Source: a virus
DNA length: 57,065 bases
IMG/VR virus record: IMGVR_UViG_3300033388_003385
Span: 1-57,065 of that record
Strand: one strand, 5' to 3'
The notes under the pieces: model-generated
What the model was told of the DNA's origin: nothing
Seen by the model: the letters and a program-made list of their open reading frames with translations, nothing else
Database searches by the model: none
Position numbers and translations under genes: made by a program
Shown here: positions 6,519 through 56,900 of the stretch, in pieces
Layout: the number at the start of each line of letters is the position of its first letter
Numbering within the stretch: the stretch's first letter is position 1

Positions 6519-6841
6519 TAGAAAACCTCCCCGGCGTCTTGTTCGGTATCGGCCAGGTCCGCGACTTTATCCTTAAGCAACCGCTCAAAGATCTTCATAA
6601 ACGGTTTGATGACCGTGTTGACCTCATCGGACGTGCAGCCGTCGGTGATATCGCTCAGCCTCAGCGTTGACTCATGCTTGCTGCATATGCCGGTCGTATT
6701 GGTTTTGCACCCATGCAGTTGACCCCATACGCGGACGTTTTGTTTGTCGTCGATATGGTCGAATCGCAGCGCATGCAGTTTATTTACAACGTTCACTGCC
6801 GACTCATCATAATCCGTTGTTATATTTTTAGTAATGGACAT
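6518..6841 (-). CDS. Hypothetical late protein, 107 aa
   Basis: A soluble, slightly acidic protein of mixed composition with two cysteines in the middle (HGCKTNTTGICSKH), which could form a loop or disulphide. It sits between the tail-fibre gene and the holin-like gene and its stop overlaps the next start. No family is recognised. Confidence 0.6.
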   Translation of the reverse strand: MSITKNITTDYDESAVNVVNKLHALRFDHIDDKQNVRVWGQLHGCKTNTTGICSKHESTLRLSDITDGCTSDEVNTVIKPFMKIFERLLKDKVADLADTEQDAGEVF

Positions 6842-6849
6842 ATTGGCTC

Positions 6850-17805: not shown

Positions 17806-18288
17806 ATGACACACCCGACAACCGCCCAAATCCCGAAGCGTTTTAACTGGTCATCCGCAAAGTTCGTATTCCTCATCTTCTCAGGCTTTGCCGTAGTTCG
17901 AACAATCGGCAAATACCAAACCTTTACAAGAATAGGGATACCTAACGCGCTGGCCGAGGCCGTGGCTGTGGGAGCATTCGTTTTGATTGTAATCGGCATC
18001 CCCGCGGCATTCATATGGGGCTGGATACGCGCCGAGCGCCACCCGTACCTTGTCGAGACGAGTATCCCTTTCCTACCCGAACAGCACAGCGCAATCGACG
18101 ACATCAAAGACCAAATCAATGAGTGCGTCAAAGATACCGTGAAAGGAGAGCTCGAACTCTCCAAGCTTCAGCACGAGAACGACCAACTTAAGGAGCAGCT
18201 CAGGCTCAAAGAGTTACGCGAAGAAAACGAACAGCTTCGCCAGCAATTAGAACCCACATCAAACGATAGCACCAAAATCAGCGAATGA
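17806..18288 (+). CDS. Two-TM, coiled-coil protein upstream of array A, 160 aa
   Basis: Two hydrophobic helices at about residues 20-37 and 45-70 (FVLIVIGIPAAFIWGWI in the second) are followed by a soluble coil (LQHENDQLKEQLRLKELREE). The leader contains CACCGAAAAAAACACCGAAG. The final codons overlap the array: the TGA stop (18286-18288) is inside the first full repeat GAATGAACCA. A membrane-anchored coiled-coil protein; function unknown. Confidence 0.65.
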   Translation: MTHPTTAQIPKRFNWSSAKFVFLIFSGFAVVRTIGKYQTFTRIGIPNALAEAVAVGAFVLIVIGIPAAFIWGWIRAERHPYLVETSIPFLPEQHSAIDDIKDQINECVKDTVKGELELSKLQHENDQLKEQLRLKELREENEQLRQQLEPTSNDSTKISE

Positions 18289-18653
18289 ACCATGCCACCG
18301 GACAGGACCATAAGTAGAGAGTGAACCAACACCATCGACTGCACCAATGGAACAGAATGAACTAGGGCCTTTGAAAGCATCATTAGAACAGAATGAACCA
18401 AGCATTCGGATAGCACCATAACAGGCGAATGAACCATACCGTCGGATAGCATCACAGAAATCGAGTGAACTATTCCAGGCGACAGTACCATGATAACCGA
18501 GTGAACCATCACCGCAGATAGCGCCATAGCATGGGAGTGAACTAGATCCAGAGAAAGTGCCATTGTAAACGAGTGAACCAATGAGAGATGAAAGCACCAT
18601 GAACATGGAGTGAACCAACAATCCCGATAGCACCGTGAGAGATGAGTGAGCCT
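18265..18653 (+). repeat. TIGR-like tandem guide-RNA array A (10 units of 36 nt)
   Basis: Alternating 10-nt repeats, R1 (GARTGAACYA) and R2 (GANAGCACCA), separated by unique 8-nt spacers, recur every 18 nt, so each R1-spacer-R2-spacer unit is 36 nt. R1 copies start at 18283, 18319, 18355, 18391, 18427, 18463, 18499, 18535, 18571, 18608 and 18644 (the last degenerate); R2 begins at 18265 and 18301 onward. One spacer is 9 nt. Spacers differ (for example tgccaccg, taagtaga, acaccatc, gggccttt). The array is in the same sense as its neighbours, starts at the stop codon of the gene before and ends 4 nt before a tRNA-like gene. It matches the two arrays flanking the Nop-domain gene at 38014. Confidence 0.9.
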
Positions 18654-18657
18654 CTGA

Positions 18658-18769
18658 GCGAGAGTGGCGTAATTGGTAGACGCTAGTGTGGAGAAGCTCG
18701 GTTAATAACCGGCACGCAAGGTTAGTAGAAATCGCTGATCCGTAGGTTCGAATCCTGCCTCTCGCACCA
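18658..18769 (+). tRNA. tRNA-Leu-like gene with expanded anticodon arm
   Basis: Seven-bp acceptor arms (GCGAGAG at 18658-18664, CTCTCGC at 18759-18765) are followed by ACCA. The D arm (GCG, AATTGGTAGA, CGC) is leucine-type, and the T arm GTAGG-TTCGAAT-CCTGC is perfect. A variable arm of class II type is possible around TTAG/CTGA. The anticodon region is abnormal: GTGTG pairs with CACGC but encloses 22 nt rather than 7, with an inner hairpin CGGTT/ACCG. The gene is 112 nt long against about 85-90 for leucine tRNAs. It may be degenerate, atypically folded, or a processing element for the array just upstream. Confidence 0.6.
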
Positions 18770-19684: not shown

Positions 19685-20122
19685 ATGGACGATGAACCCC
19701 GCAAATGCTTCCACTGCAACAACGATTACGAACTTAAGATAGCTGACTTTGTGGTTGAATTGCCAGGCGGCGAAGACCGATTTACGCTAAACGACCTTGA
19801 GGCATTGGTATGCAGCGGTTGCGGCGACGAGGTTATACCCCCTAAATCTCAGGAAATAGTAGAGGCTGCAATTGTTAAGCGCATTGAGGACTTGAGCTGG
19901 AAACTAGATAAAATACGAAAGATACGCGAAGACCTTATACGACAGAAGGAAATGGGGTTTTTAGCCCGTAATAAGTTTTCCCTCATCATGTTTGTAATAT
20001 CTGGTGCATTATTAGCAAGCTTGTTCGAAGACCCTTTAACCTATATCGCCATCTACATCGTATGGACCGCTTGGCTCACAGCAATCATATTTTGGATGGA
20101 CAAACGAGTAGGATTGGAATAG
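19685..20122 (+). CDS. N-terminal zinc finger plus C-terminal membrane protein, 145 aa
   Basis: CFHCNNDYEL near the start and LVCSGCGDEVIPPKS near residue 40 form a zinc-binding module resembling the YgiT/MqsA N-terminal domain. A helical linker follows, then two hydrophobic helices (FSLIMFVISGALLASLF and YIAIYIVWTAWLTAIIF). The usual HTH of MqsA antitoxins is absent. Function unknown. Confidence 0.65.
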   Translation: MDDEPRKCFHCNNDYELKIADFVVELPGGEDRFTLNDLEALVCSGCGDEVIPPKSQEIVEAAIVKRIEDLSWKLDKIRKIREDLIRQKEMGFLARNKFSLIMFVISGALLASLFEDPLTYIAIYIVWTAWLTAIIFWMDKRVGLE

Positions 20123-20437
20123 ATGCACATCCGCGTCCCAGTGAGTTTATTGAAGGATCTCAACACCATGAGTTTAGTGTGGGATATATCTGTAACCGAG
20201 ATCGTCCGGCGATCCCTGAAGGCGTACGCCCGCAACCCTGTGGTACTATCGCGCCACAAGAGAACTACCACAGTAAAGCTAACCTGGAACATCGAGACCG
20301 ACCTCAAGGCTTGGGAGATCATCGCCGTCGTAAAGCTGAATGTCGACAATCACCGCGACAAGCTCAACGGTTACTTGAAGAAGCCCCCATACAAACCCCA
20401 GCAAATCGAAGGCCTTCACTACAATGTCAAAGAATAA
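20123..20437 (+). CDS. Ribbon-helix-helix-like DNA-binding protein, 104 aa
   Basis: The first 40 residues (HIRVPVSLLKDLNTMSL, then SVTEIVRRSLKAYAR) read as a CopG/Arc-type ribbon-helix-helix: one strand and two helices with an S-x-T-E-I-V-R turn. A basic, Lys-rich C-terminal half follows. The start abuts the previous stop (TAGATG). Likely a small repressor for the island. Confidence 0.55.
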   Translation: MHIRVPVSLLKDLNTMSLVWDISVTEIVRRSLKAYARNPVVLSRHKRTTTVKLTWNIETDLKAWEIIAVVKLNVDNHRDKLNGYLKKPPYKPQQIEGLHYNVKE

Positions 20438-20717
20438 AGACGAAGGCTTTGCATGTGGTTCGCTCGGCTGCACGTCCCATGGTTCGCTCGGCTGCACGTC
20501 CCAGGGATGTGATTACTGCAAGGAGTGTTCTCACGCACACTTCTTTGGGCATGGCTTAGACAAGCAAGGCACGCCGTACTACTGGACGTTCAGCCTGATG
20601 TTCGGGCCACTATTCACAGACTCGAAATACATTGACATTGTAATTCAACCTGACCCGCCGTCTCCACACTGGGAAGCTTTCGAAGAATGGCACAAAAAAA
20701 GGAAGAATGATAAATGA
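20424..20717 (+). CDS. Cys-rich hypothetical protein with an internal 24-nt duplication, 97 aa
   Basis: The N-terminus contains GSLGCTSHGSLGCTSQGCDY and nearby Cys/His residues that could bind metal. The GSLGCTSx unit is a perfect tandem DNA duplication (20456-20479 and 20480-20503). The rest is Trp/Pro/Phe rich. It overlaps both neighbours. Function unknown. Confidence 0.55.
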   Translation: MSKNKDEGFACGSLGCTSHGSLGCTSQGCDYCKECSHAHFFGHGLDKQGTPYYWTFSLMFGPLFTDSKYIDIVIQPDPPSPHWEAFEEWHKKRKNDK

Positions 20718-27091: not shown

Positions 27092-27177
27092 AGCCGAAAC
27101 GGCCTACGGGCCGTCCGTCGGGATTGATCGCCCGGCGCTGACGAGGCAGATCCTCAACCCCAGAGATAGGAGCTCTC

Positions 27178-28729: not shown

Positions 28730-28981
28730 ATGAACGACGCAGAAAACCCTGATGTATATTTTTCAGTATGGATAGAAATTGAACGGGTCAATTGGAAAGA
28801 AAATGAATACGACCCCGTAACAGAACCACCTATCCACACAGCCAATTTCTCAAACGAGCAAGCCGCTTTTAAGTTCGCGGAAGGTATTAGAGTAATCGCC
28901 GACCTGCTCGATGCTGCTCCTGCGGATGCGGTAGTAGCAATCAAAGCCGCCCTCGAACGATTGGAGATGAACGATGGATGA
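28730..28981 (+). CDS. Hypothetical protein, 83 aa
   Basis: A small acidic alpha/beta protein (YFSVWIEIERVNWKENEYD; AAFKFAEGIRVIADLLDAAP). Start ATG 28730; its end overlaps the RNA ligase gene start by 8 nt. Function unknown. Confidence 0.55.
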   Translation: MNDAENPDVYFSVWIEIERVNWKENEYDPVTEPPIHTANFSNEQAAFKFAEGIRVIADLLDAAPADAVVAIKAALERLEMNDG

Positions 28982-29603
28982 ATACCACAAGATACAGACC
29001 GTTTTTAAGCGCGACCCGGCAACCAAGTATAAGACCCTTTTAGAAGGCGATTACTCTTTACCTGAATTTGAATACCTCGCCAAGAACAGATGGATCTTCA
29101 CTGAAAAGGTGGACGGCACCAACATTAGGGTGCGCTTCCGTAATGGTAAGGTGACTTTCAGTGGTAAAACTGATAACTCCCAGATCCCCGCGAGGTTGGT
29201 TGAGCGTTTGAACGACCGTTTTTTACCCCAGGTTGACGGATTCACCGAAGTATTTAGCGGTGAGGGCGTGTGTCTGTATGGCGAAGGCTATGGCGCAGGG
29301 ATACAGAAAGGAGGCCACCGTTACCGCCCCGATCAGGACTTTGTGTTGTTCGATGTGAAGGTCGGCGACTGGTGGCTGAAGCGCAGTGATGTCGAGGATG
29401 TGGCCGATAAGATGGGCATTCATGTTGTTCCGGTGGTAGGCGAAGGCACGTTGCTGGACATGGTCGAACACGCCAAGGCTGGTATCCTCTCGACCTGGGG
29501 CAACGGTTATGCCGAAGGCTACGTAGCGCGCCCTGGCACCGAGTTAAAAACACGAGGCGGAACCCGATTGATAACCAAGATCAAGTGCCGTGACTTCTCC
29601 TAG
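28974..29603 (+). CDS. RNA ligase (Rnl2-type nucleotidyltransferase), 209 aa
   Basis: Contains the covalent nucleotidyltransferase motifs: EKVDGTNIRV (motif I lysine near residue 45), GKTDN, YGEGYGAGIQ (motif III), FVLFDVKV (IIIa), GYAEGYVARP (motif IV) and LITKIKCRDF (motif V). This is the short RNA_ligase domain used to seal nicked RNA with ATP. In phages such enzymes repair tRNAs cut by host defence nucleases; no polynucleotide kinase partner is nearby. It is the last gene before attP. Confidence 0.85.
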   Translation: MDEYHKIQTVFKRDPATKYKTLLEGDYSLPEFEYLAKNRWIFTEKVDGTNIRVRFRNGKVTFSGKTDNSQIPARLVERLNDRFLPQVDGFTEVFSGEGVCLYGEGYGAGIQKGGHRYRPDQDFVLFDVKVGDWWLKRSDVEDVADKMGIHVVPVVGEGTLLDMVEHAKAGILSTWGNGYAEGYVARPGTELKTRGGTRLITKIKCRDFS

Positions 29604-29915: not shown

Positions 29916-31286
29916 ATGACAGGTTTCACTAAAGGCGTTCGGCTTGTTGACGGGTCTTATAAGTATCGTTTCAAAGTGCGGGGAAAAATCTATCAAGGCG
30001 ACACAGGCTTGATAGATATCCGTAAAGCACAAGCTTGGGTGGACGCAGAAAAAGGCCGACTCAAGCACACTCGATCAATTGCAGCGCTCGACGCCCAGCA
30101 CCGCGAGACGTTAACAAGCGTTGAACCGATTCCGCTATCTGAATCCTTTGCGCATTTTCTCAGCCTTCCCAAGGATCGAGAGAACCCTAAAGGTCAATAT
30201 CTAAAGACCACACAATCTCAATGGAATGATTTTGTGCAGTACTTAACAGACAACGGCAAAGAGCATATTGCTCAAATTTCCGAGACGGAAGCGCGTAGCT
30301 ATATCAACCATCTTAAACAGAATGGACGTTGGCGACGGGAAATCATATCACGGAAAGCAAAACGCGGATTTGCTAAAGGATTTTCCGCGCGCTCATCGCT
30401 TTCAAATCGGAGCGTAAACGCCTATCACAAAAGTTGCCAATACATTATGAAAGTGTTGCTCCAGAAGACGCAGACAAGAAACCCCTTTGCCTTTTCCAAG
30501 ATGCCTAAGAGCGCACAGCCACGGCGTATATTCGACCTGCAAACAATCAACGCGATCATGGCTGAAGCTGACGACTTCACTAAAAAGATAGCCCGAATGG
30601 GTTTGTTGACCGGGAAGCGCCGGAACGAGATTTGCATGCTTGAATGGGCGGACATCCAGATATCGGGAAGCCTGGACGACTGTATCTTACCTTTTTCGAT
30701 AGAGCGCCGGGAAGATGGAACCCGCCGAAAAAAGACGGGGACAGTTCCTATAACCGGGCCGCTTCGGGAGTTTCTCAGCGAACTAATGGGACAACGCGAT
30801 AAAGCACTGCAAAATGCTGGACCACGACAGCAGGTCTTTATCGATAAATATGTTCTCCCCGAACATGCCAAGGCGCACATGCGCAATCCTGATATTGTTT
30901 CGCGGCGGTTTACGAAGATGCTTTTGGAACTCGAAACAGCAACTCCTCAAGTAACCATTCAAATCCCAGGCCGCGACCGCGCCGCTTCGGTCTTAGGTAT
31001 TCACAGCTTACGGCATACATTCATATTCAACCTAGCAAAACAGCAAGTCCCGGCGGATATCGCCATGGGGATCGTGGGTCATTTATCAGACGAAGTACAC
31101 GCCCAGTATCGCGATCACTTCAAAAGTTCTGATCGGTTGCGTGTACTAGAAGAAGCAACCAGCGCAATCGAAACAAAGGAATCTCACCCAACATCTTCAA
31201 AAACCGACTTAGTCGAAGCGTTGAAGGCAGCACTCAAAGACGCCGATCCCGCTGATAAAATGGCGATCATCCAACAGCTGCTGTAA
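29916..31286 (+). CDS. int: Tyrosine recombinase integrase, 456 aa
   Basis: Inserts the phage into the bacterial tRNA-Pro gene. An N-terminal arm-binding-like domain is followed by a core-binding helical domain and a catalytic domain with GLLTGKRRNEICMLEW (Arg I, near residue 235), IHSLRHTF (His-x-x-Arg, near 363-368) and GHLSDEVHAQYRDHF (His/Gly box and nucleophile Tyr near 396). Start ATG 29916 follows AGAGAGG. Length is longer than minimal phage integrases. A terminator follows. Confidence 0.92.
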   Translation: MTGFTKGVRLVDGSYKYRFKVRGKIYQGDTGLIDIRKAQAWVDAEKGRLKHTRSIAALDAQHRETLTSVEPIPLSESFAHFLSLPKDRENPKGQYLKTTQSQWNDFVQYLTDNGKEHIAQISETEARSYINHLKQNGRWRREIISRKAKRGFAKGFSARSSLSNRSVNAYHKSCQYIMKVLLQKTQTRNPFAFSKMPKSAQPRRIFDLQTINAIMAEADDFTKKIARMGLLTGKRRNEICMLEWADIQISGSLDDCILPFSIERREDGTRRKKTGTVPITGPLREFLSELMGQRDKALQNAGPRQQVFIDKYVLPEHAKAHMRNPDIVSRRFTKMLLELETATPQVTIQIPGRDRAASVLGIHSLRHTFIFNLAKQQVPADIAMGIVGHLSDEVHAQYRDHFKSSDRLRVLEEATSAIETKESHPTSSKTDLVEALKAALKDADPADKMAIIQQLL

Positions 31287-37109: not shown

Positions 37110-37276
37110 TGACGAAAGTGGAACATACGACCGACCGCTGGTGTGGAATATGCAGGTTGCGCACAACCGAGCAGCTTTGCCCGGTGTGCTTTCATCGTTG
37201 GTGCCGATCTGTACCGACGAACCCCTACGACGAGACGAAGCACAAGCAGGAACAAAAAGAGGGGACGCCGAATTAA
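37109..37276 (+). CDS. Small zinc-ribbon protein, 55 aa
   Basis: ATG 37109 overlaps the previous stop (TAATG) and follows GAGGAG. The product has CGICRLRTTEQLCPVC, a C-x2-C, C-x2-C ribbon, then a Lys/Glu-rich tail and TAA at 37274-37276. Shorter than most ORF cut-offs but clearly coupled. Its end overlaps the opposite-strand terminator of the array transcript. Confidence 0.6.
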   Translation: MTKVEHTTDRWCGICRLRTTEQLCPVCFHRWCRSVPTNPYDETKHKQEQKEGTPN

Positions 37277-37286
37277 CGACGCCCCC
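37251..37286 (-). terminator. Terminator at the end of array B transcript
   Basis: On the minus strand GGGGGCGTCG and CGGCGTCCCC form a 10-bp stem (two G-U pairs) followed by TCTTTTTGTT. It lies about 20 nt beyond the last array repeat, so it would end the tasA-array B transcript and fixes the RNA sense of the arrays as minus. Confidence 0.7.
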
Positions 37287-37303: not shown

Positions 37304-38010
37304 AGGTTCACTCCTTCATTATGGTGCTTTCGACAATTATAGTTCACTCCGGTATCTTGGTTCTCTCCATAAATTTGGTTCACTCCTGTATTCTGGTGCT
37401 TTCTTGAGGGCTGGTTCATTCGCTGGTCACGGTACTGTCAAGTCTACTAATTCACTCGCATGCTTTGGTGCTTTCAAACGTTGTGGTTCACTCTGATCTC
37501 TTGGTACTCTCCTCAGGTGTGGTTCACTCTCGTAACATGGTACTGTCTTGCACATTGATTCACTCATACGGTATGTTTCTTTCATCCAACATGGTTCATT
37601 CTGGGCTATTGGTGCTCTCTCTGTATATGGTTCGTTCGCGTATATTGGTGCTATCCTATACTCTGGCTCACTCTGGCTCACTCTGGTCTTTTGGCGCTGT
37701 CGAAGATGTTGGTTCACTCCAGACTCATGGTGCTTTCATCTATCCTTGGTTCACTCCGAGGTGCTGGTGCTATCTGCGGTTTAGGTTCACTCTATTCATA
37801 TGTTTCTTTCGTATAATCTGATTCACTCAGTTCTTATGGTGCTTTCATGAGTATGGGGTTCACTCTCGTACATTGGCGCGGTCTGTATTTACTAGTTCAC
37901 TCCATATTATTGTTACTGTCGACAAGTATGGTTCACTCTATTCTATTGGTACTGTCCGCGAAACTTGGCTCACTCACTATATTTGGTACTCTCAGAACTT
38001 TGGTTATCTA
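37304..38010 (-). repeat. TIGR-like tandem guide-RNA array B (about 19 units of 36 nt)
   Basis: Seen on the plus strand as TGGTTCACTC-N8-TGGTGCTNTC-N8, that is R1 (GAGTGAACCA) and R2 (GANAGCACCA) in RNA sense on the minus strand. R1 copies start at 37304, 37340, 37376, 37412, 37448, 37484, 37520, 37556, 37592, 37628, 37664, 37710, 37747, 37783, 37819, 37856, 37893, 37929 and 37966; a degenerate copy is at about 38001. R1 at 37664 is duplicated (37674). A few spacers are 9 nt. Spacers are unique. The array starts 4 nt from the tasA stop codon and ends at a terminator. Confidence 0.92.
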
Positions 38011-38013
38011 AAA

Positions 38014-39015
38014 TCAGTCCTTAATTTCCGGCGCTGGCGGCGCGATGTAGTCCTTATGCCCGAGTATAGCGATTGGGTATGGATTTGGCGGCGGCGTGCC
38101 GTAGTGCCACTCATAATAGACGGCGTGGAAGTGTGCAAGGAACAGCTTCACCGCGTACCGCTTTGCCCTTGCATGTATTTGGGCCTTCGGCAATCGCCCT
38201 TGGATGAGCTGCTTATACGCCTCGGTCGACTTGCTCCAGTTCTTTTCCTCCAACGCTCGCGCGGCTTGCTCTGAGAACCCGCCACGCTCATTCTTGACCG
38301 TCTCTTCAGCCTTTCGTTTCTGGTAAAGCTTTCCGTAGAACGCGTCGTCTTTACCCGATACCTTAGTGAACGACTCACCGATAAGCCAGCATCTCTTTTT
38401 GAGCTCGGCGTTATGCGGGCGTCTTGCCAGCGACTTAGCGAGCGACGTGATGGTAAGCGGGATTTTCTCACCATCATTATCCGACGTCGCAAACTTGTGC
38501 AACGTCTCATACTTACGGTCATACCGCGCCGCAATGAGATGTATATCTTCAATGGTCGGCTTCTTACCATTGACCTCTTCCTTGACCAGTTTTAGCGCCT
38601 TCTCAGCAGAGAACCAGTCGCGTTTCGGGTCAAGCCCGGCATAGCGCCAGATGGCGCCAGCGGTTGGCGCTTTCTCTATATCTATATGCGCCAATAAGAC
38701 CGAGGCAATAACCGGGCCGATGCCCATGATGGACGTTGCCCATTGCCCGACGGGGTGACCCTTGGCGTAATGCTCCAGCGCCCGCGCCATCTGCTTTTCC
38801 ATCGTATGCACTTGCTCGTGCATCCATTCCAACACGTTGCAATGTGCGTTATCGACGCCTTGTGTCGCCGCCCGCAACTGGCCCTCGATAGCCGTCCGTT
38901 GTTTCTGCATCCCGTAATACCCGTCTACCAGGTATCTCGCCTCGGCGCGGTTCATCATCGACGCCCCTTTTTTGAGGTCTTTATCGAGCCTCTCGATAAT
39001 ATTCGCATCAATCAT
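38014..39015 (-). CDS. tasA: TasA-like Nop-domain protein (TIGR-associated), 333 aa
   Basis: The N-terminal about 90 residues are helical coiled coil (EARYLVDGYYGMQKQRTAIE). Residues about 97-110 are GIGPVIASVLLAHI, then WRYAGLDPKRDW: the helix-hairpin-helix and A-G-L-D-P pattern of the Nop/IS110 (IS116/902) C-terminal domain. Further conserved parts include LKKRCWLIGESF and, near the end, YGTPPPNPYPIAILGHKDYI. No DEDD/RuvC transposase N-domain or HNH is present. The gene is bracketed by two 36-nt-period arrays, as described for TIGR-Tas, where the Nop protein binds tigRNAs and targets DNA. RBS AGGAG, 7 nt from ATG. An unrelated solo transposase remnant is less likely given the arrays. Confidence 0.85.
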   Translation of the reverse strand: MIDANIIERLDKDLKKGASMMNRAEARYLVDGYYGMQKQRTAIEGQLRAATQGVDNAHCNVLEWMHEQVHTMEKQMARALEHYAKGHPVGQWATSIMGIGPVIASVLLAHIDIEKAPTAGAIWRYAGLDPKRDWFSAEKALKLVKEEVNGKKPTIEDIHLIAARYDRKYETLHKFATSDNDGEKIPLTITSLAKSLARRPHNAELKKRCWLIGESFTKVSGKDDAFYGKLYQKRKAEETVKNERGGFSEQAARALEEKNWSKSTEAYKQLIQGRLPKAQIHARAKRYAVKLFLAHFHAVYYEWHYGTPPPNPYPIAILGHKDYIAPPAPEIKD

Positions 39016-39038
39016 TCTGTACTCCTATTCTGGGTTAA

Positions 39039-39554
39039 GGATTCACTCACGGTTTATGGTACTCTCATGGTATATGGTTCACTCGTTGATATTGGTGCTT
39101 TCGATCAGTGTGGTTCATTCCTGTACTTTGATACTTTCGGCTGAGTTGGTTCACTCTCTTATCATGTTACTTTCATTCAATATGGTTCACTCACAGTCCA
39201 TGGTGCTATCGCCAAGGTTTATTCATTCGCGTACATTGGTGCTTTCGAGTGCGTTGGTTCACTCATTCCATATGGTTCTATCTGGATACTTGGTTCATTC
39301 TCTAACTTTGGTTCTATCGACGTTGATTGGTTCACTCTGTCCTAATGGTACTATCTGGTGCTTTGGTTCACTCTCTTATCATGTTGCGATCAGCTTTGAA
39401 GATTCACTCGTCGCATATGGTTCTATCGCTAAAGATGATTCACTCCTGTGGGTTGATGCTGTCGGCTCACTTGGTTCACTCTCATATCATGGTTCTTTCT
39501 GTTACTGTCGGTTCACTCGGGAGCTATGGTACTGTCATGGAACTTGGTTCAAAA
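39039..39554 (-). repeat. TIGR-like tandem guide-RNA array C (about 14 units of 36 nt)
   Basis: Same R1/R2 architecture as array B. R1 copies start at 39039, 39075, 39111, 39147, 39183, 39219, 39255, 39291, 39328, 39364, 39400, 39436, 39472 and 39509; a degenerate copy (TTTTGAACCA in RNA sense) is at 39545. That last copy contains the TGA stop codon of the upstream ATPase gene. The array ends 24 nt before the tasA start. One spacer (tcttatca on plus) occurs twice with its flanking repeats (near 39157 and 39374), pointing to unit duplication. Confidence 0.92.
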
Positions 39555-40604
39555 AATAAACTCTTTCATTTCCCGTTTGATGTAGATCAGGGTCCAATCG
39601 ACATCGTCTTCATCCCGATAGTTAATCCTAATTTCCCCATCTTTGACGACGAACTCAGCGTCCACAATTTTGAAATCAAGCTCTAGCCAGGTCTTAGGGT
39701 GACCTTTTATAATATCTTCGGGATCGTGATGCGGATTGTCGGCATACCATTCATTCCGTACGCGCCCCATTAGCGGATTTGTGGTATTGAAGTGATCCTT
39801 AATCGATAACTCATTATTCCTCAAGATCGTTACCCGGTAGGACGCGGAGGACGGCCTAAGGTTCATTTGCTTAAACGCCTCCATCGGTTGCTCTTCGGGG
39901 TACAGGTTGAGCTCTTTGATCAATGATACTAAGATATCCATGCTCGTATCGCCAAGGCATGTACAGACCTTAAGGAGGTCGTCTTTCTTGGTCTTATCCT
40001 CAAGTAGATCGTCAGCTACTTCGAGGATCATATCATCTTTCAGCCCATTATACTTTTTCAGGTAGTGGATGCGGCTGGGCCGGTTAAGCATGTACTGAGT
40101 AAGCTGCGTATACTCATTGATGGTAAGCAGGAACAGAAATTTACTGTTGAACTTACCGTCAAGAATATTAAGTAGAGAGTTTTGTTGTTCATTCTCCTTA
40201 TAGATCTTTTCAAACTCATCCATAAAGATCACACAATCCTGTGGGATTTTAGAGAGGAAGCTTAAGAACTCACTGCCGCCGTATGCCTGCGGAATGATGA
40301 TGACGGGTAGCCCGGAATCGTTGCACACCTTTTGCGCCAGCATCGATTTTCCTGTACCCTTCATCCCGCTCAGGAGCACGCCTAGATTGCCATCCCAGCT
40401 ATGGAACGAGTTGAGGTAGCGCGCGCTGAGTTCCGGCGGCTCGCCGTAGATCTTCTCAGGCATAGAGAACGCGTTTGTTTTTTCGAGGTAGAAGCATTCC
40501 CGCATCTTGTGCCAGCGTACGAGCCAGTTACAGACGGGGATTTCGTCAACGGTTTTACCCTGCATCTCTTCAAGATACAGCTTGTTTGATTCAAGAAACA
40601 TCAA
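39549..40604 (-). CDS. AAA+ ATPase, 351 aa
   Basis: Walker A GMKGTGKS (near residue 80) and Walker B CVIFMDEFEK (near residue 125), then sensor-like FLFLLTINEY and RPSRIHYLKKYNGL. A MoxR/RarA-like fold is plausible; the C-terminus is beta-rich and unique. Starts within the end of the radical SAM gene (4-nt overlap) and its stop codon lies in the first repeat of array C, so all are cotranscribed. It might load, remodel or mobilise the Tas complex, but this is inferred only from position. Confidence 0.75.
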   Translation of the reverse strand: MMFLESNKLYLEEMQGKTVDEIPVCNWLVRWHKMRECFYLEKTNAFSMPEKIYGEPPELSARYLNSFHSWDGNLGVLLSGMKGTGKSMLAQKVCNDSGLPVIIIPQAYGGSEFLSFLSKIPQDCVIFMDEFEKIYKENEQQNSLLNILDGKFNSKFLFLLTINEYTQLTQYMLNRPSRIHYLKKYNGLKDDMILEVADDLLEDKTKKDDLLKVCTCLGDTSMDILVSLIKELNLYPEEQPMEAFKQMNLRPSSASYRVTILRNNELSIKDHFNTTNPLMGRVRNEWYADNPHHDPEDIIKGHPKTWLELDFKIVDAEFVVKDGEIRINYRDEDDVDWTLIYIKREMKEFIF

Positions 40605-44960: not shown

Positions 44961-47900
44961 TTATCTACGTCTTGACCCGCGACCGCGTCCACGTGTCCGC
45001 CGCGCCCGTCCGCGAATTGTCGGCCTGCCCTCGATAACCTCTTCAGGCTCAAGTTCCAGCAAGCTTTCTTCCTCAGCACGCTCAGCCAGCCCGGCCCGGA
45101 TTTTTTCTTGTCGGGGCGGCGTGCGCATCCTGGTAACCGCGGATTTGATTGTCCGGCGCGTGACAAGTGGGATGGCCTTATTGCGTTGTCGACGTACCGC
45201 CGCGTTATAGGCCTCCATATCATTGATCGTACGTCCGAGCGCCCCGGTATCGTTCTTGAGCAGCGCCCGCCGCATCTGCGCATAGAGTTCTGTACGTCGA
45301 TCGCTGAACGCCCCAGCCGCCCGTTTATCGCGCCATTGCCGGTCACGCATATACGAGATGTTCGACGGGTTGAACTGCAGCGAGCGTAGCAGGAACTCGA
45401 AGTTGGACGCCTTGAGCCGATCCTCACCGTAGAACACCGGTTGATTCGTCCGCGTCGTGACGCCCTCGGACCATTCGCGGTAACCTTTGACAGGTGCACC
45501 CAGCGCTCGCGGCAACATTCTTTCGACGCCCTTGAGCGCATCACCGCGCATCAGGGAAGCAGCACCTTGGGTTAAGTCCTTATAGACCGAGTAGGGCGCA
45601 CCCAGGAAATCACCGAAGGATCGCGGCGCGCCGATATCAACGGCCAGCGACCCGGACAAGTTGAACCCTGCGAGCGACGGCACGCCCTGACGCGCCAGCT
45701 TTTCAGCGGGTTCACCCATTGTATCGCGTAACCAACCGTAGATCTTCTCTTCCGGTTGATCCGGTGCATCGAGGCCGAACGCACTAAAGACCGCGCGCAC
45801 GACCGTGACCGGGATCGCCGCCCCGGCCCCGCCGAGCAGCGTTGGCGCAAGGATCGCATAGGCCAGCGCCTTATGGTCTTTCTTTTCGTAGATCGACGCG
45901 AGCAGCTGGAAATAGTTATGTGTATACGTCTTGAACGTGTAGGCAGACTGTAGCGCCTGCGCCCCGAGTCCGGACCCGCGAACCGCCTTCGGCCGATTCA
46001 CCTTACCGTAAAGCCCGTGTGCTTTGTCCGTGATCTTGATTGCCTTATCGATGGCGTCGGCCCGTTCGGCTGGCGTGAACTCGGTTTTTCCGGCCTGGTC
46101 GCGCATGGCGCTATAGATGCCCATGACCGTACCGCCGCGGTTGACCCGTTCCGTAATCGCAAATGGATACATGAAGATGCGCATAAACGTATCCGCCCCG
46201 CGTCCAAGTTTGCCTTGGATTTGCTCCATAGCCTCACGGTTGAACAGCGCCTCATCATAGTTACGGTTACGCATTTCCTCGTAAGCCGCATGCATGTCCG
46301 CGTCTTTAATCCCTCCGCCGATCCCGCGCGTTTCATGGGCAAGCCCTTGGCTAAAGATCTTCATACCTTCACCAACGTACCGCAACCCTTTACGCAAGGG
46401 GATATTTGCGTAGGCCCGCATTGCCGCCGGGACGTTCGTTACCATCGCCGTAAGGTTGACGACACCGGGCGCGATACCTGTAAGGTACTTCATCGCCGCA
46501 AGTCCCTTAGCAACGCCCATGATACGTTCTGCCGGTTCCTCATTACGTAACAGTTCACGCGTAAAGCTTGTCGACTCCTCATAGAGGTTGGGTTGTTTCG
46601 CCGAATCGATCCGCCGGTCAGAGACAAGCTTACGGTAGTCCTCCCAGAGACTGCTGAGAGCATCTTGTTTCGCTTTGCCCGTCATCTTATCAAAGCCATC
46701 CGGCTTATTCACTTCCCGGTATTCCGCCCAGCTCTCTTCAGTACCAGTCATGATCTTTTGAGCTTGCTTGGCGAAGTTCGTTTTAGCCGTACCGCCTGCA
46801 ACCCCTTTCACGTATTTCGAGATAACCCGGCGTGAATCCTCGTCATAACCGCGGATGACCTGTTCACCCGTGGCGCCAAGCCGTCCGATCTTCGCAGCGC
46901 GCGAGCCCCGGCTTTCAACCTGTTTTGCGATCTGATTGACCAATGCTTGAGCGATAAGCCGAACCGGCGTACGCTCTTCAAGCTTCAGCCGTAGGAGACG
47001 ATTAGCCAGGTCGCTTTCAAGCGTTTGGCTTGGGTCTTTGAAGTGCCACGCTTTACCTTCTTCACCCTGGATCTCAAAGTATTTACCGCCGAAGTCTTTG
47101 AACACCTCATTGTACGCCTCTTTGAAGGGCGTTGTCAGGATCATGTAATCATCGACCCCGCCGTCTTTGCGTTTATACTCGATCTTCTTAGAGGTAATGC
47201 CCATGTCTTTGAGGTCGGCGATTTGTCGTTCTTCGCTGAACTCAGCAGAATCGAGCGCTTGCTGAATCATGTCATTCATCGCGACCAGGTCCAGGTCAAG
47301 GAAAGCCTGCTCACTCGGTCGTTCCGTCCGCTTCCAGGTGACCGCATAGCCTTTGTGCCGCATGGTAGAGGTCCACGCCCGCCGACCGATAGGCGTATCA
47401 AAGATCCGCATATCCACATCGTTGCCTTTCTTCGCCAGCGCCTGGAACCGTCCGCCGCCGCGTTGACGCGGGAAGTAGTGGCCGCGCCGGTCGCCCATTT
47501 CCCGGAGCGCATCGAATAAGTCAACCGTCGTTCCGTCGTCTGCCTCGATCTTGGTTGGATCAAGCCCGACCGCTTCCATTTCCTTAGCAACTCCGCCGAT
47601 GAATTGGGAGAGCTCATCATAGGTGCGGTTTGTGATCCGTCGCCACGCCGCGACCGCGTCCGCCTGTTCCTGGGTGAACTGCTTGTGCGTAATTAAATCG
47701 TTGACCTCACCGGCCACAGCCGCGCGCCATGCTGCTGCCTCGGTCTTGAAGATACCCTTTAGTTTGTAACCAGATGGTTTATAGACCTCGAACTGCCCGT
47801 CTTCATTTTGTTTGACCTTATAGCCCATCGCTTCACGGTCCATCTCAAGCAAGTATTGCTCAACCTTCTTGAATCCCGCCGGATCAGTCTTAGCTAGGTT

Positions 47901-50900
47901 CGAGTAGTATTTAAGGTCGTCTTGGAAGATATCATTTTCCAGGCGCGCTTTGAAGTCGCTCATTCCGCGGCCAGCCTCGAACAGCTTGGCATATCGCTCG
48001 TTCTTTTCCGCTTTATACAGCGGCGTGAGTACCGCATTCGCCAACCAGCCGATATCTTTTTTTACCCCTTTTTCTCTGGGTTGTTCACCAAAGAACGTTT
48101 GTATCCAGGACTGCGCGTTACCCAGGAACCCTTTACCCGCGTCCGCGGTAGGGGTCGGTTTTTCACGGTACTGCACAGCCTCCCGCGCTGCCTCACGAAT
48201 GGGTCCACGCTCCGCAATCTCACCGCCGACGATTTTATCATAGAGATTATACAGCCGGTCGCGATCCGTCGTTAACTTGACGAACGCCTTTACCCGTCGC
48301 AGTAGCCGTCCGAAGATACGCCGGATAGCCCCGGACACTCCTTTCCCGGAGTTCACGTATTCGATAAACTTATTCGCCCGCTTCTCAGCGTTTGGTTCAG
48401 CTTTATCGATGGTTTCCAGCTCATTTGGCGTAAGTAACAAATCCTCAGCTGCGTGCATCGCCTCATGTACTGCGGTGTCGGTCGGGTCCGCTTGCTTATC
48501 AACGATCTTAATGAGTCCTTTGCTATAACTGCCGACCATAGGCTCAGCGCCGCGCAGGACTTGGTCAACAAACTCCAGATCCTTGGCAACCTCAGCGCCC
48601 AACAGCTTCCGCACTAGATTGCGAATCCGCAACTTATCGGCGGCGGATGCCTTGGGCAATGCCTCAGCTAGCGCGTCAGCAGTAGGCTCGCGGAATTGCG
48701 TCTTGCGCGCTTCATCGATCTCAGCTTTAAGGTCCATAAGCTGTTTCAGCTTCTCATACTGCTCAGTGACAAACTCAGCCACTTCCTTATTGTAGCCGAC
48801 CATCGCAGCGGCCTGGCCGCGGTCTGTCATCCCGTCGACAAGGTCAATGCCCTGGTCAAGAGCGTGGAAGATAGCGTCGATATTCTTCTCATATTCACCG
48901 AGTCGTTCACGAATGGCGTTATCGACAAGGTCGATTTCCTGCTGTAGCTGGAGCCAGCGCGGGATCGGCGACGCCGTGTCGACATCAAACTCCAATTCGC
49001 CTTCCGTCTCTACTGTCGGCAACACGTCGGCTTTCTCTTCTGCCTTACGGCGCATGCTTATCTCAAAGCCTTGGCTTCCGCGATACGAGTCATACCCGCC
49101 GCCCTGCGGCCATGCTGGCTTGCCGGTTATTGCCGCGGGTTTTTCACCACTTTGCAATTCTTCGTTGAGCTGTTCTTGTTCGTCGATCAGCTTATCCAGT
49201 TCTTTCGACTCGGAGAATGGCGCATCCATCAGCTTCTTAAGTTCAGCTGCGGCCTCTGCATTCTCTTTGAACTGCGTCTGGATCTTCTTCCTGGTGGCAG
49301 GCATGTTGCGAACCATTCGCGGCACGGCAGAAAGCAATCCTTCGCCAACCGAGAAGGCACCGTCTGCGGTGTACAGGTTGGGCACTTTAATTGATGGGAT
49401 TTGGTATTTGAAGTAAACCCCGCCGTCACGCGCCGAGCTGGTTACGGCGTCGATTCGCACCTCTACGCCATTAATCGTGAGGTTGAACGTTTCGCGCCCT
49501 GGGCGAGCCTCTAAGGTCTTTTCTGCTTGGTCAACGAGTTTGTTGATGTATTCGGCAGCTGCCTTGCCCTTATACGAACGTCCATTGTGGACCAAGGTAG
49601 GTTCCTCGACGTCCATCGACTTCTTATATTTCTCAGTCAGCTTATCGAACGAAGAAAGCACCCTGTCCTGGTCTTTTGCAATTGAGGTTTTCCAACTGTA
49701 ATCAATGGCGATCTTGTCCTTCTTCCGGCGGTGTGCGCGCTCAAGCAACTGGAGTTCTTTCACGCGAGCGTCTACTCCAACCTTACGCCGAGCTGCTGGG
49801 TTGCCGGAGAAGAGGGCAGAGGCTTCGGCAAAGCTCAGTTCAGAATCATTATCTTCAGCCAGCGTCCGGGCCTCTGTCCCTTTCATCCCCTGGTTGATAA
49901 AGCGCTGCTTGCGCTCAAGCATTTGGTACATACCGGCATCAAGAGTTTTCTCGACGCCATAGCGCACGATCTCAACACCGCCGTACTTCTTGACCATCTC
50001 CGGCAATGCAAACATGTTACCCTGGCGGATAATCCGCCCTTCGCGCTGTTCCATGTCGGCTGGTCTATATGGTGCATCTATATGGTGCAGGGCTGCTAAA
50101 CGTTCTTGGATGTTTGCACCAATACCCATACGTGGGGTACTTCCGATCACGACACGGATCTTACCTTCGTTGACTTGGTCGAATAAGAATTCACGCTTTG
50201 TTTGCGTGCTATAGTCGGAGATAACAGCAATTTCATCCTCGGGGACGCCTTTACGAACAAGCTCAGCCTTCAGCTCATCCCAAGCATTGAATAACTCTTT
50301 ACCCTCTTCATCAAGAGCGCGGTAAGTATCCAGGAATACAGCCTGAACACCATCTTCTTTATCATACTTCTTGTAGCGCTCCGTAATCTCAGACGCCGCC
50401 CGCATGAGCTTGGAATTAGGGTCTGCTGGCAATGTGGGGTCAACCAACCGCATATCGACAGTAGATTTGCGCCCAAGACCAAAGATAACCAGGGGAATAT
50501 GTGAGTTCTCTTTCTTCTCTTTGCCCGAGAGGTTTTCAAACCATTCATAGAGTTCGCCAAGGAACTGCGTGTACTCTTCCAGGTTGGGAGTGCGGTCAAG
50601 TTTGATCGTTTGCGGGGTGCCACCTTGAATAGCTGGGCGTGGCACATCTTTAAGATCCTCGGGCAAGATAACATCAGCTGCTTCCTGGAACATTGTCGCC
50701 AGCTCCGGCGCATTCAGGAATGAGGCAAAGCGCTCGATCTGTCGGAACCGTCCAGCCGCGTCTATTTCCAAGCCTGCCACGGTCTGGGTAAATGCTGTAG
50801 CAAACTCATCAAACTTCTCAATACCCCAATCCCGCAGTATTTGCGGGTTGACGTAACGAACCATATTCCACAGCTCGGCCAGAGTATTGGTAACGGGGGT

Positions 50901-53900
50901 GCCTGTTGCCAGCACAATGTTTTTGCCGCCGGTCTTATCCCGAACGTGTTGCAGCTTGATCGAAAGGCTGGAAGCTTTTTGGCTAAAGCCCGTGTCCAGC
51001 CCTTTAACGTTCTCCATCTGCGTCAAGAAGAAGTTCTTTTTATACAAGTGTGCTTCATCCAGGAACACCGCATCAACGCCGAGATCTTCGAAGAAGACCG
51101 TATCGTCAACTTTACGGTCAAGTAGTTTTTTTAACCTGTCTTCAAGGCTCTTTTTGGCCGATTCTAGCTGTTTTACTCCTGGGGACTTCTTACCATCACG
51201 TTCTGCGCCTTCGCGAATGGCATCTTCCAATTCATCCAACTGCCCGCGGATATGCGCTTGGATACGTGCAGGGTCATCCGGGATCAGATCAAACTGCGAA
51301 TGACTTACGACGATGATGTCGTAATCACCGGTCGCAACTCGCGACATAAACGTTTTGCGGTTCTGCGCGCTCATGTCCTTTCTTGTAACCTGGAGAACCT
51401 TTGCCGAAGGATATAGCTTAGGAATGAACTTGGAGAATTGCTCAATCGTAGAGTTCTGCACAACGATCAGGGATTTATCCGCAAGCCCCATGCGTTTCAT
51501 TTCCATAGCCGCCGTAACCATCACGCCGGTCTTGCCCGCGCCCACGGCATGAGCCAGCAATGTCGGCTTTTGCAGGATTCTGTTAACTGCAACGCGCTGG
51601 TAATCACGCAGGATGTATGGTTTATCGTCAACCACAGAGGATGCCCCTGGGTACACATTCCTGTCATACATCTGCGTGTACTTTCGCGGGACAACTGCGT
51701 TAAACTTCTCGTTGTAGATCTTCTCCAGCTCTTGTGCCGACTCCTTGTCGGCTTTGACCCATTCGACGAACTTCTTTCGAATCGTATCGAGCATGGCGCG
51801 TGCAGCAAGAGTGCCTTCCGCATCTTTGACCCTGGACTTCCCGTCAGGTCCAGTTGTATAGACGGTCGGTTGTTTGCCGTTAAGCGCAGCCGTGATCAAC
51901 TTCTCTGCCGTCAAAGTCCCGGAGGCATATTCAGTATTATTTGCGGTAGAGCCCTTGCCGTCCGCAGCGTCAATGCTCCATAGGTTCTGTACGCCTTCCC
52001 GCCCGGACGGCGTCAAGGTGATCGTCGAACGTCGTGATTTGAAAAGATCACGCACCCATCTGGTATAGATGGAGCTTGGCACCCACTGAGAGCCCAGCCG
52101 CAAGCTAATCTCCTGGATCTCCTTATCAACGGGCTGCAAAGGTTTCAACGCGTCGACGTTTCTATCGTAATCGGGGTTCTCCTTTGCGGACTCTGTCGCC
52201 TCGGCAAGCTTTTTGCGCACATTACCGCTCAGGTATTCGTCGCGAGTTTCAATCTGCCCGGTCTGCGGATTGCGGTAGAAATCGGGAGATCCCAGCAATT
52301 CTACCTCAGCCGCATCCGGCGTCATGCCTGTAAGCTCGGTCACGTATTGCATATCGATATTGTTTCGATATGCAATACTGATAGCAGCAGCATCCAGCGC
52401 GTTGTCGGCTTTTTTCGGTTCCTGCCAAGGGTGCTGAACCCGTTTGGTGAAGATAGGGCCTTTAGAATATTCCTTTACAAAGACAATTCTGCCCTTCTTC
52501 TTCACTGTCTTTGGTGTGACTTCTTCGACCGAGAGCACTAGCGGGTATTCAGGGTCTGTGCTTAGAAAACTATGCCTACGGTTGTTTCCGAATTCGCCAT
52601 GTTTCTTGACGTGTTTGTCGTAAGCGTCATTCAACTTCTTGCGCTGCGCCTCAATCTGCTTGTCAGTCGCTTCAGAGGATTTTTCCAGCGAGATCAGAGC
52701 TTTGACGTTCTCACGCACCGGCACATACGTCTTAGCCCGCTCCACTTGCAACTTGTTGTCTCCCCAGGCAACAGGCTGCAACCTGCCCGCGCGGATCTCG
52801 TAGACCTTCCCGCCTTTAACCTGGATGGAATATTCCTTGCCTTTTGCCAATGCGCCTACTTCTGCGTCGGAGTCGCGGATCACGGCAGTTTTGCTTTTGC
52901 CCAACACGTCTTTCGGGAACTGAGTAATTGCCTTGTCCAGGGACTGTTTAACGTCTGTACCTGGGACTACTTCAAGGTTAGGCGTGTCTGCGCGGTACAT
53001 CGAGCCCGTGAGTGCCAACCGCCCGAGAAGCATCTCAGGGTTTGCCGCGTAATATTCGTTGATAGAGACATCGCCCTTTTTGTCATATGTCGGGATGGCC
53101 TTTGTTTCTACCCAAGGCTGGGCTGCTGTTGTCGGTGCTCCGTCACGCTTACGCAAGACGATCATATCCGTCACAACCTCGGTGCCTGCACTCTTCTTGA
53201 ATGTGGTGTCCGGCAAACGAACAGCGCCGACGAGTTCAGCGCGTTCAGCGAGATAGCGACGTTGTTTGATGTTGCTGTCCATAGTCCCTGTACTGGTAAT
53301 AGCGACAACCAAACCTCCAGGCTTCACGGCATCGAGCGCGCGAGCGAAGAAATAGTTGTGCAGAGACATCGTAGGATACGCCTTGTCGTATGGCCCCTTC
53401 TCATGGAAGGGGAAGTTGCCGATCACCATATCCAAGGAGTTGTCCGGGATGTCGGTATCCTCAAGCCCCTTCACGTGGACCTCGGCCTGCGGATACAGTT
53501 TCTCCAGCATACCGCCGGTAACCTTGTCCATCTCGACAGCGACCATGTCCGTCTTCTTCGCCACGTTATCGGGGGTGAGCCCCATAAAGTGACCGACACC
53601 AGCGCCGAATTCACCCACACGTCCACCTTTGAAGCCCAGATGCTCGGCAAGATCCCATGCCCCTTCAATAATACTGCGCTCGGTATAGTGTGCGTTCAGT
53701 ACAGATCGTGCCGCCGCGTCAATTTCTACTTGCGTCAGCAGGTCGGCAAGCTGCTCGTAGTATTTACCCCACTTCTTCGACCATTTTTCATCATAGCCAA
53801 AAGGCTTATACCCACGCTTTGCCTTGATAAGGTGAGCTTGGGCTTTCTCTTTGTCGAAAAGCCCCGCAAGTCCTCCCCAGCCGACGTATTTAGCCAACGT

Positions 53901-56900
53901 CTTCTTTTCTTTCGGGGATGGCAGGCGATCGGCCTTTTGCAGCTTCTTCAATAGAGCGATAGCGCTTAGGTTCGCTTTCGTCTTGGAGACATCGCCGCCG
54001 ACGATAAGTACATCTTCAGGGGCAATGCGGTGGTTCTTTTCGGCAGGAGTTAGTCTTGCAGGCTTCTCTTGAACCGGCTCAATTTCGCCTTCAACCTTGG
54101 CGACAACGGCGGTTGGCTCATCTCTGTCTCGGGGTACACGATCTCTCTCAGTACGAGCTCGCTTGCCTCTTGTTTCGACATCCCGCCCTGTATCAGCTGG
54201 TACTCCTGGCCCCACGCCTGTTGCGTCTTTTTGTCCAGGTAGTTTTCTAGCGGCTTTGTCCCGTCCTTCTTCAGGAGTCGGGCCAGCCTTAGCGGCTGCT
54301 CTTCTTCCAGCCACTCCAGGTGCTTCCACCACATCGGGCTTTCGTTCATCTCTAACGTCGACATCAACAGGTTCCTCTTCCTTACTTATAATAGACTCTT
54401 TCCCGACGCCCTTGTCAACGATTTTGAGGATAGCCTTCGCCTCTTTCCTGGTCACGTCCTGCATGTCATCGCCGAATTCTGACTGCTCGGCTGCACCCTG
54501 CCACCAGGAGACGAGGTAGGGCTTTGCTTTATCGCCGAACACATCAATCATGTTCTTGGCGTATTCAGCAAAATTGCGGATGCCTGCTTCTGCGTAGATC
54601 ACAGTCAGCTCGATACCATCGCTCATCAACGTAGGGTCGATCCCTACGCCAAGGTGGCCAAACTTCTTTTGCATCTTCTTCTTCAGCTCTTCCGCCCGAG
54701 CCTGCTTCTCTTCAGAGAGATTAGAAAGGAAACCGGCCTCCCGTTTCGCTTTAACCTCTTTCGCCTTTTTCTTGATCTGTTCAGCTTTTGAAGGCTCCGC
54801 GGGTTTTTTTATAAGTGGCTTCGCAATCGGCTTCGGTACTGGTTCCGGCGTCGGTGCAACTTCGGCCTCTTCCGCCTTTAGCTCTCTAACTCGCTTGGGC
54901 TCCGCAGTCTCCAGCTTCTCTGCCAAGGCATCACGTGCCCACTTATTAAACTTATATGCCTCAAGCACTTTAACAGGAACGTCCCGCCCCTCTTTAAGGG
55001 CTTGTTTCACCTGTTTAGGATGTGCGCTCTTTTTGATAGCTATTTCATTTACATCGGTTACGTCCTCGACATATTCAGACGGTGTCAACATCCACGGTTC
55101 TTCCGCCTTTGAAGGCTTCACTTCCCCTAGCTCTTGCTCTGTCGCCGCAATCTCTTCCTCAGTAATATCCACTTGCTCAGCAGGCGCGGCCATTTCCTCT
55201 ACTGGCGCAGGTTCAGGCTCCACCAGAGCCGCCGCTTCCGGGACGGCCTGGGCTGCGCGGGCTAACTCAAACTCTTCCATACGTTGCGATTCTTCCGGCG
55301 TTGCCGTGATTTCACGTTCCGCGCGCAACTCCTCGAATGGCTGTTGCAACCCTTGTTGAGCACGTTCGTAATCAGACCGCAATTGCCGCCCTGGTTCGCC
55401 GGAGATATCCTCTTCAGCAAGTAATGCAGCTTGCTGAACATCGTTCCCGGCGGCGCGCATATACTCAACCCAAGCTTGCGGCCCGACTTCGTCGCGCAAA
55501 GCAGCGACTTCCATTTCATCAAAAGAGACCTCAGGCGCAACCGCTTGCGGGGGAATGGGGGGTGCTTCTGGGGGGATTGGCTGTTGTGCGGCTGGTTGTT
55601 CTGCTCCTAACCCAAACAGGATATCATCCACATCGCTTTCGGGCGGTACGAACTCCAGGCCTTCCGCTTCAGCCGTCGATTCCGGCGATGCCGGGGCTGG
55701 ATCGACCGTTTGCCCGGTGGCCATATCGACAGGTTCTTGCGGCGTTTCTGCACCCTCATCCAGCCCGTGCTGTTGTTCCGTTTCCGTGGTTGAATCAGAG
55801 AACGGTTGTAGCGTACCCTCATCGATCATATCGACCGGCGCTTTTTGTGAGCGCTCAGCCGTTTTAGCTGCGAGCCGTCGTAGCCCGCGCCCGGTTGCGG
55901 ACGCCCCGCCGAACATTCCACCGGCAAGACCGCCGGATGCTGAGGCCTCGGCCCAGTTCATGAATTGTTCTTTCGTAGCGATGCGGAATTCCGGGTCATT
56001 GATCTCTTGGTTGAGCGAGCCTAGGAACTCCTGGAACCCTTCTTGCCCGGCTTCAGTTCCGACAGAATCCCATAGCGCCCCAGCGGCGCGACGAGTAAGC
56101 CCGCGCTTGCCCAGGTCGGCGACCTTAGAGCGAACTGCTCCGGAGAAAATCTTATTCAGCTTCGGCGTCACACCAAACGCACTCTCTGAAAGGCCCGAGA
56201 CGAGGCCCAGCGCCAACGAGGAGACCGGCGCATCGATTCCCCGTTCTTTGAGCTCACCGTACATCCCGCCGCCTTCCATGGCTGTACCGGCAATCGTTGT
56301 ACCCAGGAACGCCCCACCGCGTTTTGCGAGGTGATTGTGCAGTTGCCGTTTAGCGAGTTCACGCGCCGTTTTGTGACTGACGCCCTTCTTGAGGTGTTGC
56401 GCCGCCATCTTCGCGAGTGCCTGCTTAATCGCGCCGCGCGAGAAGAAACCACCGATAGCCCCGGCGGGGATCGCGACCACATCATCCGGACCAATGCCGG
56501 GGACGGCCTGCGACCCGATAGCCGCACCAGCTGCGGACGTCAGCGCCATCTCAGTTAGCGACGGCAGGAACTCACCGATCGTACCAGCGGCCCACGTTCC
56601 CAGGTTCTCGACAGAGCCGAAGGCCCCTTGCTTGGGATCGGCGGAAAAGAACTTTTGCACAGTCCGCGGGTTTTCCGCAGCTTCGCGCATTTGCTCCTGA
56701 TAGCCTTCAAACGACCGTTGCGCCCCGAGCTCATCGCCGGTGAGCTTACGCATCGCGCCCAGGAACCCGTGACCTGTGGCTTGTAGATTATCAATACCGG
56801 AAAGAAGCCCGCGCGTGAACTCTGAGCGCCCGGCAAGGTTTTTCGCCGCGATCTGCTCGGTTTCGATTGCCTGTTGCTCTTCTTCTTGGGCAAATTCATC

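Follow-up and report, generated by a model that had tools for sequence, protein, structure and literature searches.

The stretch analysed here, referred to as the window, is the whole 57,065-base virus record IMGVR_UViG_3300033388_003385 of IMG/VR, which belongs to a tailed phage that encodes a terminase, an SU10-like portal, a capsid and an integrase. It carries two arrays of short alternating repeats on either side of a gene for a 333-amino-acid protein, and a third array of the same kind lies elsewhere in the record. An earlier note, made from the letters alone, had described the two flanking arrays and their protein as a TIGR-Tas-like locus. The features of the system are as follows (all names and strands as used below).

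37304-38010, minus strand: TIGR array B, 19 units, beginning 3 nucleotides (nt) past the tasA stop with the truncated edge repeat TAGATAACCA
38014-39015, minus strand: tasA, coding for a putative nuclease-less Nop-fold guide-RNA protein of 333 amino acids
39039-39554, minus strand: TIGR array C, 14 units, its first edge 5'-truncated to TTTTGAACCA
18246-18653, plus strand: TIGR array A, 11 units with the repeats of B and C, 19 kb from the tasA locus
37261-37286, minus strand: intrinsic terminator downstream of array B, a 10-bp stem GGGGGCGTCG/CGGCGTCCCC with a 6-nt loop, followed by TCTTTTTG

Read on the sense strand, each unit consists of an edge repeat (GARTGAACCA), spacer A, a loop repeat (GANAGNACCA) and spacer B, mostly in a 10-8-10-8 arrangement with spacers of 8-9 nt, and the three arrays hold 44 such dual-spacer units in total. 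Edge and loop share their ends, GA at the start and CCA at the finish, as the box D / box C pattern demands. The 36-nt period, dual repeats and short spacers that had been reported for arrays B and C, as well as the open reading frame between them, were all found where the earlier note placed them; its inventory was right for these two arrays and left out array A, although the labels B and C imply that its author was aware of a further array. A chain-scoring model gave 217 for array B, 210 for array C and 165 for array A, against no more than 10.5 in any of 20 shuffled versions of the window (first-order Markov). CRISPR-Cas arrays have single repeats of 25-36 nt, spacers of similar size and cas genes, whereas here there are two 10-nt repeats and 8-9-nt spacers, and a scan of proteins from the neighbourhood of the locus showed no Cas family.

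All three arrays open with a 5'-truncated edge right where a gene of the same direction ends. In array C the TGA within this first edge doubles as the stop codon of the AAA ATPase gene that lies upstream, and array A begins inside the 3' end of the open reading frame 17806-18288, to which an edge provides the TGA stop. Most simply, transcription of the upstream gene would run on into each array, which would form the tail of that mRNA. We assign arrays B and C to the minus strand, that of tas, as their functional strand, because the arrays of relatives lie on the tas strand nearly always and the published Salicola phage array does likewise. The final edge of array C, ahead of the tasA start, is degenerate; this array needs no terminator, as it reads into tasA. 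Array B contains one duplicated 10-nt edge near 37673-37683. A perfect 24-bp tandem repeat at 20456-20503, within the open reading frame 20062-20559, holds an edge-like GAGCGAACCA on the minus strand and may be either chance or an array remnant.

The search with a Tas profile that had been proposed as a check gave a clear result, the protein matching the NCBIfam model NF052498 (TIGR_Tas_endo) with 176.6 bits (E 6.6e-52; cut-off 100). A sequence search of the PDB returned TasR (9mty, 3.9e-9) and TasH (21kl, 8.3e-9). Structure prediction, the second proposed check, used AlphaFold2 with 40 sequences from the window and its relatives; the model has a predicted local distance difference test (pLDDT) score of 87.1, is nearly all helical from residue 4 and contains the Nop fold. 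In Foldseek comparisons with the PDB its closest folds were TasH (9w04, E 1.9e-6) and TasR (9mty, E 1.2e-4), with the recombinases IS621 and ISCro4 appearing only at 0.1-1. A helical insert of about 50 amino acids, at about residues 135-198, recurs in the relatives L006-L014 and L082. The absence of RuvC and HNH domains, from which a TasA type had been deduced, held up in Pfam and profile searches of the window, which found no DEDD domain either. We therefore assign the 333-amino-acid protein to TasA, on its matches to NF052498, TasH and TasR without DEDD, RuvC or HNH. The 36-nt unit, the edge/loop layout, the truncated first edge and the terminator also fit the published description of TIGR-Tas (PMC12045711), bearing out the system identity that the earlier note had proposed.

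We considered whether the gene might instead be the remnant of an IS110-family transposase beside an unrelated repeat array, since it matches PF02371 (27.6 bits) and phrog_4285, which is named 'transposase'. Tests of domain content, equivalog score, fold and array linkage refute this, and we regard it as practically out of the question: the IS110 N-terminal DEDD domain (PF01548) has no match in the window, the IS110 equivalog model reaches only 34.8 bits against a cut-off of 140, the TasH and TasR fold matches beat those of IS621 and ISCro4 by several orders of magnitude in E-value, and an array is present in nearly all relatives. The same PHROGs label will hide genes of the TasA type from annotation.

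Scans of IMG/VR yielded up to 385 relatives for one query. An array was found in 279 of 288 related loci examined, many of these loci being overlapping copies of the same contigs, and among the 288 only the window and two others have an array on the strand opposite to tas. When 36 relatives were scanned over whole contigs, one other had array matches on both strands; because a second, opposite-strand array is this rare (1/36), the layout of the window is uncommon. Of the other genes of the window hardly any recur beside tas in relatives, and the module therefore moves between unrelated phages. Two sequenced isolates also came to light. The Microcystis phage Mvi-JY20 (L086), for which the host is known, has an unannotated TIGR array at about 6650-7000, downstream of its Tas homologue, with edge-like ATGCGAGCC and loop-like ACGAAACCC repeats, and makes a good experimental system. 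Acidobacteriaceae bacterium KBS 96 (L084, 10801-11008) has TasA and a short array.

Comparison of related arrays shows how their guides change. Multi-element changes fall in the phase of the tigRNA (starting with A and ending with B) in 98 cases and out of it in 4, a count that omits mixed changes with unequal element loss on the two sides (37 begin with A, 17 with B) and in which array pairs overlap, one pair per lineage leaving about 41:2. By type, the in-phase to out-of-phase counts are 29:1 for two-element indels, 37:2 for longer even indels, 22:1 for two-element replacements and 10:0 for longer replacements, and single-spacer replacements have no phase preference. Alignable spacers are mostly 91-99% alike and flanking DNA is often 86-89% alike, with adjacent units entirely swapped. 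Whole edge-A-loop-B units are thus what related arrays gain, lose or swap. Since the edge repeat has the same length as the loop repeat, recombination alone would not be expected to produce so strong a bias; its natural explanation is that A and B of one tigRNA are kept together. The bias supports, from independent data, the 36-nt dual-spacer unit, and indirectly also processing into 36-nt tigRNAs.

To ask how the two spacers relate to a target, we used 2,087 non-redundant guides from 105 array lineages, drawn from about 280 array-bearing loci, which represent the TIGR-TasA family rather than the window alone; at most of the loci the protein is assigned by its alignment to TasA, and the spacer boundaries come from the scoring model. 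Adjacent bases of natural DNA are correlated, which is the rationale of a junction test. When A was joined directly to the reverse complement of B (A|rc(B), gap 0), the test gave z 3.7, a value reached by 0 of 1000 permutations, against z -0.3, -0.4 and -1.8 for the other geometries and -0.4 to 0.9 in four control tests that paired B with the next unit's A. The 3'-terminal base of A and the complemented 3'-terminal base of B thus behave as neighbours in natural DNA, and the gapless A|rc(B) is the arrangement implied by the cleavage pattern of TasR (PMC12045711). Composition agrees: between A and B the correlation is -0.081 for keto content (bootstrap 95% confidence interval -0.124 to -0.037) and -0.064 for purine content (-0.105 to -0.022), compared with -0.076 and -0.092 for contiguous 16-bp pieces of real phage DNA in an opposite-strand reading, where a same-strand reading gives positive values. 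Spacer pairs from outside one unit correlate more weakly.

A third test concerned coding. When homologous guides are read as A.rc(B), amino-acid-changing differences number 93 against 109.7 ± 5.4 expected (z -3.1; other geometries z -1.4 to -2.2), as illustrated by ATT CAT CGA ACT TAT in L014 and its CGC, ACG and TAC variants in L015/L016; the modulo-3 spacing of guide substitutions is in slight excess only. Because these three modest tests agree on A.rc(B), the guides would address contiguous sites on two strands, and together the data support the view that TasA guides are directed to contiguous coding sequence, A on one strand and B on the other. Such targeting has been shown experimentally for TasR and TasH only, and DNA targeting by TasA was not among the tests of the 2025 paper (PMC12045711).

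The opposite-strand and junction signals could in principle arise from constraints on the RNA, such as pairing of A with B in the guide or errors at repeat boundaries, rather than from DNA targets. The effect sizes are small and the spacer edges were set by the scoring model, both of which leave room for such an origin, but we consider it unlikely: A resembles rc(B) in little excess; the signal peaks between A and B within one unit, is confined to one geometry and is similar in size to that of natural DNA; and it agrees with the variation at silent sites, which would not be expected from a constraint on the RNA.

Taken with the anatomy, family membership, Nop fold, lack of a nuclease and family repertoire statistics, all of which the analysis shows, these data lead us to read the locus as a TIGR-TasA system in an integrase-bearing tailed phage, in which TasA led by tigRNAs would hold contiguous two-strand sites and so block competing genomes; we give this reading a probability of roughly 90%. 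Several results weigh against it. Each guide statistic is modest, weak per guide and family-wide, and the window's own 44 guides are too few to have power alone. Searches for self-targets, in four geometries and allowing gaps of 0-2, covered 82 loci, including all 57 kb of the window, and showed no geometry-specific excess over mis-paired guides. No convincing cross-target was found in 1.2 and then 3.3 Mb of TIGR-phage DNA, and in 300 bacterial genomes, all from one order, two guide-family patterns had 0 and 3 matches and gave no sign of a target. Exact scans of IMG/VR with two conserved guides of relatives gave a cluster for one only, and this lacks corroboration.

The guide that gave the cluster is common to six TIGR phages and has 33 exact A.rc(B) matches, 14 of which fall at the same position (IEQYGL) of a homologous phage gene for a single-stranded-DNA-binding protein in several lineages (contigs include L289, L293, L296, L301, L318 and L320). 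A sister array's variant of this guide would place a stop in the frame of that gene, and the remaining guides of the arrays that bear the IEQYGL guide show no excess in two of the matched phages. The second guide has 9 matches and no real cluster. We treat the gene as a weak lead to a target, because conserved motifs of common genes can cluster by chance.

The same searches bear on the idea that the guides regulate the phage's own genome, TasA then serving as a programmable repressor of phage DNA or in an architectural role on it. A protein without a nuclease and arrays fixed in the phage genome would suit this role, for which silencing of the type IV / V-M CRISPR-like kind offers a precedent (PMC12045711). 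The self-sites of the 82 loci, being no more frequent in any geometry than those of mis-paired guides, speak against it, as does the turnover of guide sets between phages that are ~87% identical, and we find it improbable.

The remaining features lie around the locus or further along the record.

39549-40604, minus strand: AAA ATPase gene upstream of array C (PF00004, 1.2e-12; phrog_2376)
41332-40601, minus strand: radical-SAM gene, first gene of a probable operon
29916-31286: tyrosine integrase gene
18658-18766, plus strand: tRNA-like gene abutting array A (Rfam RF00005, 37.8 bits)

The radical-SAM gene, the AAA ATPase gene, array C, tasA, array B and the terminator probably form one minus-strand operon. 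Among the first 87 loci of relatives, an AAA gene near tas was represented by one weak match about 4-5 kb away; the AAA and radical-SAM genes were rejected as conserved partners of tas, as these neighbours are not kept beside it, and the AAA gene is probably a transcription neighbour and no conserved part of the TIGR system. The radical-SAM protein weakly resembles prokaryotic viperins (PADLOC pVip, 2.5e-8) and is probably a generic radical SAM protein. The tRNA-like gene, 4 nt ahead of which array A ends, is accepted by ARAGORN only if its anticodon loop is allowed an insert of 15 nt; the phage also encodes an RNA ligase (28974-29603, plus strand), and the two may possibly serve RNA splicing or repair. 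A type II hammerhead ribozyme lies at 27092-27155 on the plus strand (Rfam RF02276, 52 bits, above the gathering score), and a single open reading frame of 3988 amino acids (44961-56927, minus strand), one fifth of the record, had no tblastn match to TIGR loci. The best match of the portal protein was to Rhizobium phages, at 33% identity, and a search with it found no near relatives of the window phage.

The integrase raises the further idea that TasA assists integration or excision by bending host attachment (att) DNA, an RNA-guided aid to integrases having been suggested in the 2025 paper, where TasR was reported to bend the DNA it targets by about 180 degrees (PMC12045711). For one or two att sites, far fewer guides would do than the 44 different ones found here or the dozens in many relatives. 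The guide variants resemble coding DNA, and the integrase lies 6 kb from the array with unrelated genes between. We therefore rate this role as very unlikely.

For the blocking of competing genomes, we infer expression, processing, binding, outcome and the choice of other mobile elements as targets. On the minus strand, the AAA and tasA mRNAs would carry arrays C and B as their tails, with transcription stopping at the terminator after B; on the plus strand, array A would likewise be the tail of the open reading frame 17806-18288. By trimming the transcripts, a host RNase would release 36-nt tigRNAs made up of a half-edge, A, the loop, B and another half-edge. Each of these would guide TasA to a contiguous 16-17-bp site where A matches one strand and B the other, their 3' ends meeting. 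TasA would most likely hold and bend the site, thereby blocking a gene or replication in the competing genome; blocking without cutting is proposed because TasA lacks a nuclease.

The 2025 description of TIGR-Tas left open the natural guide targets, the origin of guides and the role of nuclease-less TasA (PMC12045711). More tentatively, and at somewhat less than even odds, we suggest that TasA arrays are ever-renewed guides against coding genes of rival mobile elements, with units swapped without adaptation genes, guides that track silent drift and silencing without cutting; the window would be such a phage, holding part of its repertoire in a distant opposite-strand array. The repertoire analysis offers sequence-only evidence for a coding-DNA aim of TasA guides and for the complete tigRNA as the exchanged unit, and this family-level evidence is the wider value of the locus that led to it. 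For an experimenter, the analysis specifies which 16-bp target belongs to each guide and points to suitable phage isolates.

Among known systems, TIGR-TasH of Salicola phage CGphi29 (SpTIGR, PMC12045711; PDB 9w04, 21kl) is likewise phage-borne, with the same Nop core and the same 10-8-10-8 edge/loop units of 36 nt. Its repeats, read in the tas direction, are AAGCGAGCCA / AAGACAACCA, compared with GAGTGAACCA / GANAGNACCA in the window; it has one array instead of three, and TasH bears an N-terminal HNH nuclease that the window protein lacks, the two sharing about 26% identity over 41% of the query. TIGR-TasA of Flavonifractor plautii (solo Nop, FpTIGR, PMC12045711) combines, as here, a nuclease-less Nop protein with an adjoining dual-repeat array, but its summed spacer length is 18 nt where that of the window is mostly 16, and the remote opposite-strand array and the helical insert in TasA are features of the window. 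TIGR-TasR of Thermoproteota (PDB 9mty) has the Nop fold and tandem-spacer logic in common with the window system, as the fold match given above reflects, and differs in its RuvC domain and 9-nt spacers. The bridge-RNA recombinases IS110 / IS621 share the PF02371 core and a Nop-like RNA-binding fold with the window TasA, which has no DEDD domain and an array of many short guides in place of one bridge RNA. The window locus is thus a TIGR-TasA, a known type, in an uncommon three-array layout.
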